A DNA stretch of 64,000 bases from an uncultured Cohaesibacter sp. (GTDB taxonomy: Bacteria > Pseudomonadota > Alphaproteobacteria > Rhizobiales > Cohaesibacteraceae), in the NCBI RefSeq assembly GCF_963676275.1, contig NZ_OY781091.1:3388775-3452774 (forward strand), written 5' to 3'. Shown one piece after another: positions 49,534-54,795 of the stretch (position 1 is its first letter; each line of letters begins with the position of its first letter). Made by a program: the position numbers and the translations under genes. The notes under the pieces were generated by a model. It had not been told where the DNA came from. It made no database searches and saw only the letters and a list, made by a program, of their open reading frames with translations.

Positions 49534-52500
49534 ATGGTAACGAAGTCTCCAAAGATTCAGGATCCGACAGAAGCGGCTCTGTCAGCGGTTGAAGATGCTT
49601 TGAAATTGGATTTCGACGTCTCGGACGAGATTACAGAATCCAAGTCGAAAAACGACGCTGACAATGCCAGAGACTCTGGTGAGAAGGGCTTGGGCAAGGG
49701 CGAAGTCCGCGGCAAGAAGATCAAGCCAAGGCCTGCCAATGATGATCAGCAATCGGTCGGTCATCTGCTGCATTCTCTTCAGCAGCCCCCCAGTTCTGCG
49801 CCTTACATGTTCGCCTCGATACTGTCTCTATTCTGGGTAGCCATTGGTGGCGGCCTGTTCCTGATGGGATTTGGCGGAGAACAGATCGCGGAGAATGGCT
49901 TTGCTTCGCTGATGGATTCTCCAGCAGCTCTGGCAGCCATGGCCGGAATTTTTCTTCCCGTCATTCTGTTCTTCATGATGGCCTATATTGTTATTCGCGC
50001 CCATGAAATGCGTCAGGTATCCAACGCCATGACGCAGGTTGCCATGCGTCTTGTCGAGCCGGAGAATGTCGCCAAGGAATCCGTCGTCAATGTCGGACAG
50101 GCCATTCGCCGCGAAGTGGCCTCCATGAGCGACGGCATCGAGCGCGCACTGGCCCGCGCCTCCGAGTTGGAAGTCATGGTGCATAACGAGGTTTCCTCGC
50201 TGGAACGCGCCTATACCGAAAATGAACTGCGCATTCGCTCGCTGATTGATGAACTGATCACCCAGCGCGAAGCCATCGTGTCCAACTCCGAGCGTGTTCG
50301 TGCATCGATTTCGGGAGCCCATACCAGCCTTGCCGATGAACTGACCACCACCAGCGAATCCATTTCCAAGAGCGTATCGGACGCCGGATCCCGCGTTACC
50401 CTGTCACTGGCCGAAAAGGGCGAGCAAATCACCATTGCGCTGGCCAATGCCGGCGAGACCATGGTCAATGTGCTTTCCAACCGCGGCTCCGATCTGGTTG
50501 ACCGCCTTTCGACAACCGGTGCCAATGTCACCGAGTCACTGACGGACGCAGGCCAGTCCATCACCAATCAGCTGAGCATGTCCGGCACCGAGATTTCCCA
50601 GAAACTGGAAATGACCGGTAGCGACTTGACAAGTCAGCTGGCCAGCATCGGCCATGAAGTGACCGACCGCTTCATTGGCGCAGGTCAGGAACTGACCTCC
50701 ACCCTCTCCCAGACCGGCGAGACGGTAACCCAGAATTTTGCCGAAGTTGGCGCTGGTCTGAACACCAGCCTGCAAACCATCGGCAATGACGTGACGGAAA
50801 ATCTGTCCACCACCGGCCATGCCCTGACCAGCGAGCTGAAATCGATCGGCTCGGAAGTCACCGCAAATCTGGTCAATACCGGCGGCGCTCTCAGCAGCGA
50901 GCTGAAGACCATTGGCTCGGAAGTCACCGACAATATCGCCAATACCGGCCATTCCCTGACCGAAAATCTGAGAAATTTCGGCTCCGAAGTCACGACCAAT
51001 CTGGCAGACACCGGCGGTTCGATCACCTCGGAGCTGCGCGAGATCGGCACTTCGGTCACTGGCAGCCTGTCGGAAATTGGCGCCACAATGACCCGCTCCA
51101 TGTCGGAGACCGGTTCCACCGTGGCCGAGAATATCCGCACTCAGGGCACAGAGATCGTCTCTGCAATCACCGAACGCTCTTCGGAAGTTTCCCAGGCCCT
51201 CAAGGGCACCGGCGACGCGCTTCTGGTCGATCTGTCTCTGCGCGGCACGGAAATCAACGAAAAGCTGGACGAGACCGGCACCAATATTGCCCATACGATC
51301 TCCAGCACCGGCGACAGCCTGACCCAGCGCATGACGCAGACCGGCGCGCATATTTCCGAAACCCTCTCCTCCAAGGGCGAAGAGCTTTGCAACAGACTGG
51401 ACGCCACCGCAGACCTCATTCACCAAACGGTTGCCGTCAAAGGCGGTGCGCTCAACGAGCAGCTTGAAGCCCATGCCTCCAACCTTGGCTCCATGCTGGA
51501 CGAACGCACAAGCAGCATGAGCAATGTGCTTGAAACCCAGTCCAGAGCCATGTCCGAGAATCTCGAACAGGCAACCGGCAAAGCAACCGATGCGCTCAAC
51601 TCCCGCTCCATGGAAGTCACCGAGCGTCTGGCCATGGTCGGCACCGAGATCGCCAAGGTCATTGCCCAGCGCGGCAACAAGGTCAAGGAACTGTTCGAAA
51701 ATGCCGGTGGCGAGCTCACCAATGCGCTGCAGGGCCAGAGCGAAGAAATCCGTCTGGCCATGGAAGAACGCGTCAAGGCATTCGACGAGGTCATCTCCGT
51801 TGGCGGTTCCAATCTGGTCAGCCATCTTGGCGACCGTCTTGATACGCTCAGCCAGTCGATGGATCAGCGGATCAATTCGCTTGACCAGACCCTGTTTGCC
51901 CGTGCAGGCGAAATCGAAACCCTGCTGGATACCCGCCTTGAAGGCTTCACGGTCAGCGTTTCGGCCCGGGCTGAAGAAGTGGCCAATGCCCTCACCAGCC
52001 GCACCGAGAATTTCGAGCAGGAAATCTCGACACGCCTGAGTGGCTTCGAGGACAGCGTTTCCAGCCTGACCATGAATTTCGCCACCAAGGCGGACACGCT
52101 CAATTCGGCTCTGGAAGAACGCACCAGCAAGCTGGACGAAACCCTCGACAGCCGCGCCCGCAACATCAACGAAACCTTGCTGGAACGCACCCGCGATATT
52201 GCCAAGGCCTACTCGCAAGGGCAGAATGACATCAATGAGAGCATGGACAAGCGCCTCACTCTCGTTGGCGAAACCCTGTCGCGGCAGGCTCATGAGCTTA
52301 CCGAAACCCTGTCTGATCGCGTTGCAGAAATCAACGTATCCCTCGGCAGCAAGGTCTTTGAAGTGGCCGAAACTCTGGACAGCCGCTCGGCCCAGATCGA
52401 AGCCATCCTCAATGATCGCCTGAATGCGATCTCCACCAACTTCGCAACCGAAAGCGCCAAGGCTCGCGATGCCCTTGCCTCGACCCTGACGACAGCAAGC

Positions 52501-54795
52501 GCCGAAATCACCGAGAAGACCGAAAACTTCAACGCGGTGCTCGGCTCACGCTCGGCTGAACTGTCCTCCATCCTTGATGAAAAAGGCAATGCCGTCGTCA
52601 TGGCTCTGGACAGCCGCTCCGAGAGCATCACCGACACCTTCCAGAAGGCCGGTGAAAGCATCATTCACAGCCTTTCCAGCCGCGGTGGCGAAATCGCTCG
52701 CGCCGTTGCTCAGGAAAGCGCACGTGCCTCCCAGACCCTTGCCGAAACCGGCGAGCATCTGGTCACGGCAATCAACGAAAACAGCGCACGCGCAACCGAT
52801 ACGCTCAACGAGAGCACCTCGCGGGCCGTTCATGCCATCACCGAGAATACGGATCGCTCTGTCAGCTCCCTGACCAGCAGCACCGAACGGGCAGCCCATA
52901 CCATGTCCGAGAGCGCACAACAGGCAGTACAGATGCTCGAAGAGAGCACCTCGCGTACCCAGAATGCGCTCACATCAAGTGCCGAACTGGCAGCAAGGGC
53001 CCTCAGCGAAAGCTCGAGTGAAACCCTCTCCGCCTTCGAGGCCGCATCCCAGCGCACCGTTTCCGCCCTTACCGAAAGCTCTCGGCATGCGGTCGAAACC
53101 ATCGGCGAGAAGTCCAGCCAGACCCTTTCGGCAATGGACGAAAGCTCCAGACGCACAGTCGAAGCTCTCACCATCAGCTCCGATCAGGCAAGAAGTGCGC
53201 TTGAAGCCTCTTCCAGCAATCTGGTCAAGGCCATTGCCCAGAGCAGTCATGATGCCATCGTCAAGCTGGACACCTCCAACAAGCGTCTGGTCGAAGCGAT
53301 GCGTATTGCCTCCGACGAGGCAAGCCAGTCGATGAGCAGCACCAACGAGCTGCTCCGCGCAGACGGCACGGAAATTGTCGAGCGTCTCAAACACGCCAAC
53401 GACACCCTGTCCGAACTGCTTCTCAATGCCGGACACAGCCTCTCGACCATCGAGACCAGCCTGTCCGAGCAGACCAACCAGTTCCGCACCGTTGTCGAAA
53501 CCGTCGTCAACGAGGCCGGCAACTCGACCAACCAGCTTACCGGCCATGTGCATGATCTGCGGGATGTATCCAACAGCATCCTCGGTCAGGTCGCATCCCT
53601 CACCGACAAGTTCGAGGAACAGGCCTCTGCTCTGGTCAATACGACCCGTGTGATGGAAGCAACCAATGGTCGACTGGAAGGATCCGTCGAGGAACGTCGC
53701 GCCATGCTGGCAGGCATGACCGAGGATCTCGCCCAGCGGACAGAGGCCATCGAGAATGTCCTCAACAACTTCACCTCGATCATTGCCAGCACCCTGAGCA
53801 CTGCCGAAGGCCGCGCCCGCGATGTCGGCATGCTGCTCAGCCAGAGCACCGAAGGGGTGTCCAAGGAAGTCATGGACCAGTTGGAGCAGCTGCGCATCAA
53901 TGCAGCCTCCGAAGGACGCAGAGCCGCCGAATCCATCCGCGCCGTTCAGCGCGAGATGAGCGAGGAAATGGCCCAGTCGATGTCCGACGCCAATGCCCGC
54001 TTCGAGAAGGCGACGCAGGATATCCGCTCCATCACGCAGGAGATCAAGCGCGATCTGGATGTCACCCGTGCCGAACTCAAGCAGGGTCTGACCGAACTGC
54101 CGACCGAAACCCGCGAGGCAACCGGAGCCATGCGGCGCGTGGTATCCGAACAAATCGATGCTCTCAAGGAACTGTCCCGCGTGGTACAGCGCCATGGCAA
54201 CATGTTCGATACCGTTCCCGCTTCCGAGCGCTCCAGCCAGCAGCGGGCAGCCTCCGCTCAGGGTGGTGGACAGCAGCGCGCAGCTGCACCGGTCCAGCAG
54301 CCTGCACGCCAGCCGGAGCCGCAACCCAAGCAGCAGGCAAGCAACTATGCGCCACAAAGCGCCAGAGATGAGCAAGAAGGTCGTTCCGGCGGCTGGGTCT
54401 CCGATCTGCTGCGCCGCGCTTCCCAGCCAGAGGACAATATTCCTCAGCCCGGCGATGCCGAAGCTCTGGCTCCGATTTCCAAGGATATCATCCGCGGTAT
54501 CGACGCCAACAATCAGGCCGACGCATGGGAAAGCTATCGTCGCGGCGAAGGCGGAAGCTTCACCCGCCGCCTCTACACCTTGAAGGGTCAGCAGACCTTT
54601 GAGGATGTCCGCATGCGCTACCAGCGCGACACGGATTTCCGCAACACGGTCAATCGTTATGTCGGTGATTTCGAACGCATCCTTGATGACATTTCCAGAA
54701 AGGACCGCGACGGCTCAACGACGATGAGCTACCTGACCTCTGATACCGGCAAGATCTATACCATGCTTGCCCATGCCAGCGGCCGTCTCGGCTAA
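49534..54795 (+). CDS. Growth-pole-ring (GPR)-like giant coiled-coil membrane protein
   Basis: A 1753-residue protein of the apolipoprotein-like / 'kinesin-like' family of Rhizobiales. The order is: an acidic, disordered N-terminus (1-85); two membrane helices (about 91-112 and 131-154); a helical region; about 90 uninterrupted 11-residue repeats (282-1271); further coiled coil to about 1560; a Gln/Pro/Ala-rich linker (about 1570-1620); and a C-terminal globular domain with DIIRGIDANNQADAWESYRR, SFTRRLYTLKGQQTFEDV and YLTSDTGKIYTMLAHASGRL. Agrobacterium GPR, which forms a ring at the growing pole, has the same plan and about 2,100 residues as I recall. AAGG lies 11 nt before the ATG. The role in polar growth here is inference. 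Confidence 0.8.
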   Translation: MVTKSPKIQDPTEAALSAVEDALKLDFDVSDEITESKSKNDADNARDSGEKGLGKGEVRGKKIKPRPANDDQQSVGHLLHSLQQPPSSAPYMFASILSLFWVAIGGGLFLMGFGGEQIAENGFASLMDSPAALAAMAGIFLPVILFFMMAYIVIRAHEMRQVSNAMTQVAMRLVEPENVAKESVVNVGQAIRREVASMSDGIERALARASELEVMVHNEVSSLERAYTENELRIRSLIDELITQREAIVSNSERVRASISGAHTSLADELTTTSESISKSVSDAGSRVTLSLAEKGEQITIALANAGETMVNVLSNRGSDLVDRLSTTGANVTESLTDAGQSITNQLSMSGTEISQKLEMTGSDLTSQLASIGHEVTDRFIGAGQELTSTLSQTGETVTQNFAEVGAGLNTSLQTIGNDVTENLSTTGHALTSELKSIGSEVTANLVNTGGALSSELKTIGSEVTDNIANTGHSLTENLRNFGSEVTTNLADTGGSITSELREIGTSVTGSLSEIGATMTRSMSETGSTVAENIRTQGTEIVSAITERSSEVSQALKGTGDALLVDLSLRGTEINEKLDETGTNIAHTISSTGDSLTQRMTQTGAHISETLSSKGEELCNRLDATADLIHQTVAVKGGALNEQLEAHASNLGSMLDERTSSMSNVLETQSRAMSENLEQATGKATDALNSRSMEVTERLAMVGTEIAKVIAQRGNKVKELFENAGGELTNALQGQSEEIRLAMEERVKAFDEVISVGGSNLVSHLGDRLDTLSQSMDQRINSLDQTLFARAGEIETLLDTRLEGFTVSVSARAEEVANALTSRTENFEQEISTRLSGFEDSVSSLTMNFATKADTLNSALEERTSKLDETLDSRARNINETLLERTRDIAKAYSQGQNDINESMDKRLTLVGETLSRQAHELTETLSDRVAEINVSLGSKVFEVAETLDSRSAQIEAILNDRLNAISTNFATESAKARDALASTLTTASAEITEKTENFNAVLGSRSAELSSILDEKGNAVVMALDSRSESITDTFQKAGESIIHSLSSRGGEIARAVAQESARASQTLAETGEHLVTAINENSARATDTLNESTSRAVHAITENTDRSVSSLTSSTERAAHTMSESAQQAVQMLEESTSRTQNALTSSAELAARALSESSSETLSAFEAASQRTVSALTESSRHAVETIGEKSSQTLSAMDESSRRTVEALTISSDQARSALEASSSNLVKAIAQSSHDAIVKLDTSNKRLVEAMRIASDEASQSMSSTNELLRADGTEIVERLKHANDTLSELLLNAGHSLSTIETSLSEQTNQFRTVVETVVNEAGNSTNQLTGHVHDLRDVSNSILGQVASLTDKFEEQASALVNTTRVMEATNGRLEGSVEERRAMLAGMTEDLAQRTEAIENVLNNFTSIIASTLSTAEGRARDVGMLLSQSTEGVSKEVMDQLEQLRINAASEGRRAAESIRAVQREMSEEMAQSMSDANARFEKATQDIRSITQEIKRDLDVTRAELKQGLTELPTETREATGAMRRVVSEQIDALKELSRVVQRHGNMFDTVPASERSSQQRAASAQGGGQQRAAAPVQQPARQPEPQPKQQASNYAPQSARDEQEGRSGGWVSDLLRRASQPEDNIPQPGDAEALAPISKDIIRGIDANNQADAWESYRRGEGGSFTRRLYTLKGQQTFEDVRMRYQRDTDFRNTVNRYVGDFERILDDISRKDRDGSTTMSYLTSDTGKIYTMLAHASGRLG
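50377..53346 (+). repeat. About 90 in-frame 33-bp (hendecad) repeats
   Basis: Residues 282-842 are 51 units of 11 residues with hydrophobic residues at positions 7 and 11 and often Gly at 4 (for example KSIGSEVTANL, KTIGSEVTDNI). Residues 843-1271 are 39 units in the same 11-step phase, but with hydrophobic positions 3 and 7 (for example SRAVHAITENT). No insertion or deletion breaks the phase. DNA units are diverged, so this is an old protein repeat and not a recent tandem expansion. Confidence 0.85.

Follow-up and report, generated by a model that had tools for sequence, protein, structure and literature searches.

GPR of Agrobacterium (2115 amino acids, aa) and RgsE of Sinorhizobium (2089 aa) have been described as large membrane-anchored proteins with repeats of the Pfam Apolipoprotein family, PF01442 (PMC8262873, PMC7327166). 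In Agrobacterium, GPR is reported to assemble at the growth pole into a ring made up of six foci and to be required for rod shape (PMC8262873), and normal unipolar growth and rod shape depend on GPR/RgsE in the two bacteria studied (PMC8262873, PMC7327166). RgsE was termed repeat-containing, and its homologs in Emcibacterales and Rhodospirillales have already been reported (PMC7327166). A Sinorhizobium meliloti strain from which rgsE had been removed is reported to be still capable of growth and division (PMC7327166). Neither the family nor its apolipoprotein-type repeats are new, and that its helical part is very long is known as well. The main text of PMC8262873 uses none of the terms 'hendecad', '11-residue', 'heptad' and 'repeat', and in the open-access literature we found no report of the register lock, the pitch change or the quantised length of the repeat array described below. 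Here we analysed a GPR/RgsE ortholog encoded in a 64,000-nucleotide stretch of DNA (the window) from an uncultured marine Cohaesibacter sp. (contig NZ_OY781091.1, positions 3,388,775 to 3,452,774), together with its relatives across the order Hyphomicrobiales.

The open reading frame (ORF) at window positions 49534..54795 on the + strand encodes 1753 aa. Its sequence identifies the product as the ortholog in Cohaesibacter of GPR/RgsE, the inner-membrane scaffold of polar growth, and the features found bear out the original prediction, made from the letters alone, that it is GPR-like. As in GPR and RgsE, two hydrophobic, transmembrane-like segments lie near the N terminus (residues ~93-114 and ~131-158; 49810..50007, +; from the hydropathy of the translation, the last hydrophobic scanning window ending at residue 158). 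They are followed by PF01442 repeats over a long helix (8.5e-55; 185.9 bits against a cut-off of 90; nine stretches, with a further match to ApoLp-III at 5.8e-14) and by a conserved C terminus common across the order, whose 130 aa were matched in 194 of 199 genomes, once in each except for two matches in G171. The window protein is shorter than both described proteins, and its 11/3 period (3.666) is purer than that of Brucella, Rhizobium and Agrobacterium relatives (3.646-3.664).

Behind the membrane segments lies a long array of 11-residue units (hendecads). The original prediction had divided residues 282-1271 (50377-53346) into 90 units of 11 residues with no phase break. The 11-residue periodicity is real. 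The hydrophobicity spectrum peaked at 3.667 residues in residues 282-842 and at 3.671 in residues 843-1271 (3.666 in both on the Kyte-Doolittle scale). The autocorrelation, which had been suggested as a check, was 0.67 at lag 11 in the first block and 0.59 in the second, and 0.57-0.67 at lags of 11, 22, 33 and 44 residues. The start and the continuity of the array had to be revised. Three more in-register units precede residue 282, so that the array begins about 33 residues earlier and covers residues ~249-1271. It comprises a first run of 54 units (residues 249-842; 50278..52059, +) and a second run of 39 units (residues 843-1271; 52060..53346, +); between them the whole 11-column pattern steps by four. 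A two-column statistic was 1.98 in the first run and 1.51 in the second; 2000 shuffles of each run never exceeded 0.81 and 0.77, respectively.

As predicted, units 1-51 (counted from residue 282) carried Val, Ile, Leu, Met or Phe at position 7 in 98% and at position 11 in 100%, and Gly at position 4 in 35 of 51. For units 52-90, where positions 3 and 7 had been named as hydrophobic, position 7 agreed in 97% and position 3 in only 54%, with Ala there in a further 12 of the 39 units. The glycines represent one variant of a more general column of small residues; the order-wide profile at register 4 was G 0.23, A 0.18, S 0.16 and T 0.15. Wheel angles calculated for an 11/3 array gave a hydrophobic stripe two columns wide, with an Arg-rich column (register 3, R 0.34) on one side, the small-residue column (register 4) on the other and an acidic back. 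The net charge was -64 over 990 residues, or about -2 per 33 residues, and the repeat region was net negative in all 34 proteins of a sample hand-picked for diversity. The hydrophobic fraction of the array was ~0.35 and its hydrophobic moment, by our own calculation, 0.343. Proline was absent from the composition of residues 282-1271, in keeping with the very long amphipathic helix that had been proposed, and the period, being above 3.6, lies on the right-handed side, as expected from the proposed straight or slightly right-handed tendency. In the suggested structure prediction, the AlphaFold2 model of residues 81-1280 showed, beyond about residue 180, helices 92-278 residues long and no broken short helices; because the mean pLDDT was 51, this is weak evidence, usable only as 'mostly long helices'.

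The two runs meet at a single four-residue register step (residues 843-845; 52060..52068, +). A Viterbi register search, trained on every third protein of the set described below, the window protein included, placed one skip, of size 4, at residue 845 at penalties of 10 and 14, and two breaks at penalties of 5 and 7. Random deletions of 1-10 residues were detected in 8-10 of 10 trials per size in the window array and in 10 of 10 in four other arrays. Shifting the profile of block 2 by exactly 4 gave its best fit to that of block 1 (r = 0.50, compared with 0.23 without a shift). With the hydrophobics removed the same shift was still preferred (r = 0.28 against 0.16), and therefore the Arg and small-residue columns move too; on the same result we dropped the idea that the small-residue column alone moves near residue 842. 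The skip was found at the same sequence in 9 of 9 Cohaesibacter proteins examined, and L039, the only sister-genus protein compared, had no skip and four more residues at the step site. The four-position shift of the stripe near residue 842 had thus been seen correctly, but with the 11-step thought to be kept; the Viterbi skip, the shift-four profiles and the Cohaesibacter comparison show that it is a break in register. The step is one heptad-like step, equivalent to a 7-residue unit, between hendecad runs and turns the stripe by about 33 degrees.

To place the window array within the order, we used a set of 152 proteins that included the window protein. It was drawn from 100 fetched order loci, less L046 (no ORF with the motif) and L099 (306 aa), and from 53 of 80 named loci. 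Ortholog ORFs were chosen by requiring the C-terminal motif; L048, which runs off its contig, was kept. Frames ranged from ~980 to 2940 aa in the fetched order loci. Two duplicates (L133 of L033, and L157 of L079) were counted among the 152 and dropped from the 144- and 142-protein and disjoint-pair analyses. Because the C1 anchor fell within the array in some proteins, the C2 anchor was used order-wide. The 144-protein set excludes six proteins whose C2 anchors were weak, the 142-protein set two more with anchor distances below 600, and the 148-protein Viterbi set two with arrays shorter than 200 residues.

In the 146 of 152 proteins whose array signal was strong enough, the phase of the hydrophobic stripe was fixed relative to the N-terminal block, at 240 degrees (R = 0.985). 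This block is a conserved coil that serves as the anchor of the array register (residues 175-254 in the window protein; 50056..50295, +, by profile match), and it was matched in 152 of 152 proteins by a profile trained on the same set. Its averaged period was 3.583, from only 80 positions. At the other end of the array lies a flanking coil of different pitch (residues 1284-1543; 53383..54162, +), with a period peak at 3.598 in the window protein. The median period over the order was 3.665 in the array and 3.601 in the C-terminal flank, the array exceeding the flank in 142 of 142 proteins; array periods of at least 3.64 were found in 135 of them. The results indicate that the array is a right-handed-side segment adjoining fixed coils of lower pitch. 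Earlier work spoke of apolipoprotein-like domains and three-helix bundle models; in place of these, the register data suggest a single continuous stripe adjoining coils of another pitch.

Uninterrupted runs in other proteins can be longer than in the window. The longest had 147 units (L107, with one 10-unit block only half hydrophobic), and L040 had 123 clean units, every block being fully hydrophobic or Ala at both core positions. Runs of at least 90 units occurred in 46 of 148 proteins at a penalty of 10, and in 44-46 across penalties of 5-14. At penalty 10 the 148 proteins held 733 register skips: 420 of size 4, 220 of size 8, 74 of size 1, 16 of size 7 and 3 others. Skips of 4, 8 and 1 correspond to one, two and three added 7-residue units, and the arrays are in this reading mosaics of elevens with sevens added. 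The comparison with relatives that had been suggested gave periods of 3.646 in three Brucella-named loci (frames 1626-1637 aa) and 3.663 in one Agrobacterium vitis locus (frame 2370 aa), with 9 skips in Brucella thiophenivorans (L153) and 8 in A. vitis (L189) against 1 in the window protein.

Among 289 genomes of the class, 111 had a match to the C-terminal domain, and 107 of these lie outside the order. We examined 20 of these 107 homologs, hand-picked with long frames favoured and frames chosen by a loose motif (that of L232 is provisional). All had regular amphipathic periods, of 3.566-3.626 and none as high as 3.64, and their longest hendecad run was 24 units; on this evidence the 11/3 array appears to be particular to this order. 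G390, a genome from outside the order, had two matches on different contigs and possibly holds two GPR-like genes.

The length of the array varied mainly in whole helical steps. Anchor-to-anchor distances were periodic at 3.665 residues (R = 0.478, n = 144; 0.461 at exactly 11/3), the next best period between 2.5 and 30 reaching R = 0.214. After dereplication to 89 proteins R was 0.454 at 3.665, with a Rayleigh p of 1.6e-8 at 11/3 that is uncorrected for shared ancestry, and two control intervals outside the array gave 0.038 and 0.065 at 3.665. Among nine Cohaesibacter proteins, measured to the C1 anchor (the C1-C2 distance was a constant 88 in all nine), the distance took eight different values between 1011 and 1264, a spread of up to 253 residues, and every one left a remainder of 10 modulo 11. 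In 50 disjoint pairs (7 of 57, below 50% identity, were left out) 87 of 154 gaps in the array were multiples of 11, against 4 of 278 outside it. The non-multiples fell in the 4/7 modulo 11 classes (±33 degrees) in 27 of 67 cases in the array and 29 of 274 outside, and 14 of the 154 gaps in the array, against 192 of the 278 outside it, were 1-3 residues long. Homologous coiled-coil linkers of phytochrome diguanylate cyclases are reported likewise to differ in length by whole helical repeats (PMC9587094); there the unit is mostly seven and the linker about 28 residues, against 11 and ~1000-2000 residues here. A comparable idea exists for synaptonemal proteins, in which coiled-coil length is described as conserved (PMC8598163).

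We consider that the array most likely is an extensible coiled-coil-like scaffold or spacer, which holds the modules at its two ends in phase with the rod, and not a ruler of fixed length. The protein consists, in order, of two membrane segments with the conserved coil, the 11-residue helical array of variable length, the coil of other pitch and the C-terminal helical domain. Most likely the array functions in the manner of a homo-oligomeric coiled coil, long, free of proline and slightly right-handed, that extends from the membrane. Its narrow stripe (positions 7 and 11) is bordered on one edge by Arg and on the other by small residues (Gly/Ala/Ser/Thr, position 4), which would allow close packing of helices. 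The comparison of relatives shows that the continuity of the stripe and its register are conserved rather than its length. For the most part repeats come and go as units of 11 residues (33/66 bp), and the majority of the remaining register changes equal added 7-residue units. The negative charge and the coil-like periods seen in the flank and in the homologs outside the order together favour helix-helix association over binding to an anionic bilayer.

Hendecad coiled coils are commonly recognised by an 11/3 hydrophobic periodicity over many repeats, which the array has (3.667), and by three hydrophobic core positions per 11, in place of which it has two large hydrophobics and a small-residue column. 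For this reason we class it only as working like a hendecad coiled coil. Right-handed coiled coils of the tetrabrachion type share the 11/3 period with it; in GPR a small residue replaces the third core hydrophobic, and the array is much longer.

Several observations weigh against the scaffold reading. The stripe is narrow, with two large hydrophobics per 11 residues, and the single-chain model of the array is of low confidence. Lipid-binding 3-11 helices (Table 1 of PMC5889406) span a range of hydrophobic moment and composition into which the array falls. When about 20 residues were deleted from predicted coiled coils of GPR in Agrobacterium, paired foci are reported to have persisted if the variants were expressed alone, and severe shape defects to have appeared if they were expressed beside the wild type (PMC8262873). 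Among the non-multiple gaps in the array, 23 of 67 fell in the 1/3 modulo 11 classes, out of phase by 65-98 degrees, many of them in the most diverged pairs. Seven of 142 proteins (L047-L050, L150, L173 and L200) had array periods of 3.62-3.64, below 3.64, and L049 had 26 register skips. The Viterbi skip sizes are partly built in, since a skip of four superposes two hydrophobic columns, and other sizes appeared in small numbers at a penalty of 5. Finally, in-gene tandem arrays were found in 85 of 98 loci, with periods that were multiples of 33 bp in 335 of 510 overlapping rows of Tandem Repeats Finder (TRF) output; part of the quantisation is therefore mutational.

It is doubtful that the quantisation is purely mutational, that is, the result of slippage or unequal recombination between 33/66-bp repeats with no constraint on phase. 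Besides the frequent 33-bp multiples, such an origin would account for the positions of the gaps between the window protein and six proteins of the same genus: all 11 lay in two places, residues 415-519 and 1152-1181, and the first overlies a 66-bp tandem repeat of 2.9 copies in the window (50770..50961, +; tandem-repeat search). It would not account for the array gaps other than multiples of 11 preferring the ±33 degree classes, nor for the scarcity of 1-3-residue gaps, and in the window array neighbouring units have only 41% of their bases in common, with no 18-mer recurring exactly. Recent length change seems to come at least partly from tandem duplication, and mutation and structure both seem to contribute. 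More serious, though still rather unlikely, is the possibility that the array is a giant amphipathic 3-11 helix of the apolipoprotein, synuclein or perilipin 4 type, which folds on lipid and coats or organises the membrane of the growth pole. The PF01442 and ApoLp-III matches speak for this, as does apolipoprotein A-IV, which was the only relative in the Protein Data Bank (PDB) at E <= 0.01 and also the best for the array alone; with the exchangeable apolipoproteins (A-I, A-IV, E) the protein shares 11/22-residue repeats as well. The N terminus is membrane-anchored, and the authors of the GPR study proposed lipid roles (PMC8262873). Perilipin 4 has ~1000 residues of indel-free 11-mers (29 x 33 in human Plin4), is weakly hydrophobic and has few aromatics, and the moment of 0.343 (against 0.257-0.48 for the 11-mer helices of Table 1) and the hydrophobic fraction of the array resemble those of perilipins (PMC5889406). 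GPR differs from it in being net negative, membrane-anchored and bacterial and in having diverged units, and relatives such as L107 and L040 exceed the 87-88 units of Plin4. Lipid-binding helices were expected here to be neutral or positive with basic residues at the interface, features that PMC5889406 describes as helpful, not essential, for lipid droplets. The array is net negative instead, as is the repeat region throughout the sample, which disfavours an anionic bilayer as partner, and Arg is enriched on one stripe edge only. A charge-reversed perilipin 4 helix largely lost its plasma-membrane localisation, whereas a negatively charged variant with raised hydrophobicity still reached lipid droplets (PMC5889406). 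The latter result, with moment and composition in range, is why we keep a lipid-bound helix in consideration; the outside-order homologs and the C-terminal flank, with periods of 3.57-3.63 and not 11/3, count against it.

That the array is a fixed molecular ruler which sets ring size or distance from the pole is very improbable; the original prediction had proposed that its length could act as a ruler or ring segment at the cell pole. The helix is very long and continuous, its 1023 residues at 0.15 nm each adding up by arithmetic to ~150 nm at full extension, and the Agrobacterium GPR ring is given as 200 nm (PMC8262873), but between the same anchors the nine Cohaesibacter proteins alone span 1011-1264 residues, and the 152 proteins 355-2313, some of the low values coming from weak anchors. 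The fixed ruler was rejected on the variation within the genus, and the data thereby separate it from an extensible rod, which fits. Hardly credible at all is membership among ZorA-type anti-phage tails, to which residues 296-710 matched at 9.1e-9 in NCBIfam. We rejected it since the score of 34.1 bits is far below the curated cut-off of 190, and the order-wide C terminus and the ferredoxin, Hpt, CheZ-like and MFS neighbours also argue against it. Separately, the Conclusions of PMC8262873 give 600 nm for an extended helix of 1,700 residues, where 0.15 nm per residue gives ~255 nm; the argument made there, that this part is longer than the 50-nm foci, holds even so.

Returning to the extensible scaffold, we would predict that changes of 11 residues in the array are tolerated and changes of 3 or 5 are not. 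The wide natural range of frame lengths permits a comparison across species of array length with ring size. We tentatively suggest, as one possible history, that the Hyphomicrobiales GPR array is an evolvable phase-locked rod whose pitch moved from ~3.57-3.63, as in relatives outside the order, to 3.665 on the right-handed side, perhaps with its use in unipolar growth, after which length was free to vary almost only by whole helical steps. If this were true, the pitch of the helix could be read from array lengths alone.

The conserved C-terminal helical domain (residues 1624-1753; 54403..54792, +) was delimited by an alignment of 34 order sequences, among which 9 columns were invariant, and by AlphaFold2, which gave six helices at a mean pLDDT of 84.7. 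No PDB match at E <= 0.001 (best E 0.22) and no Pfam match at E <= 0.01 was found for it, and it may be an undescribed domain family. Five of the 199 order genomes (G033, G063, G122, G139 and G188) gave no match to this C terminus. Three of them belong to genus g58, two other members of which match weakly, and loss or fast divergence is possible. In L099 (G079:C1:3922000-3930500, same order) the frame matching the C terminus has 306 aa only and may be a broken or split gene or an assembly error.

Immediately around the GPR gene lie a ferredoxin, an Hpt, a CheZ-like and an MFS gene. In the flanks fetched for the 80 named loci, relatives were found for the ferredoxin at 72, Hpt at 46, CheZ-like at 14 and MFS at 21; given the frequency of the first two, the two genes preceding GPR are conserved neighbours. 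Opposite the array, a long open frame of 585 aa runs on the - strand of the window (50536-52293), and such frames exceed 2000 aa in some relatives. They are probably a by-product of codon usage in the repeats.

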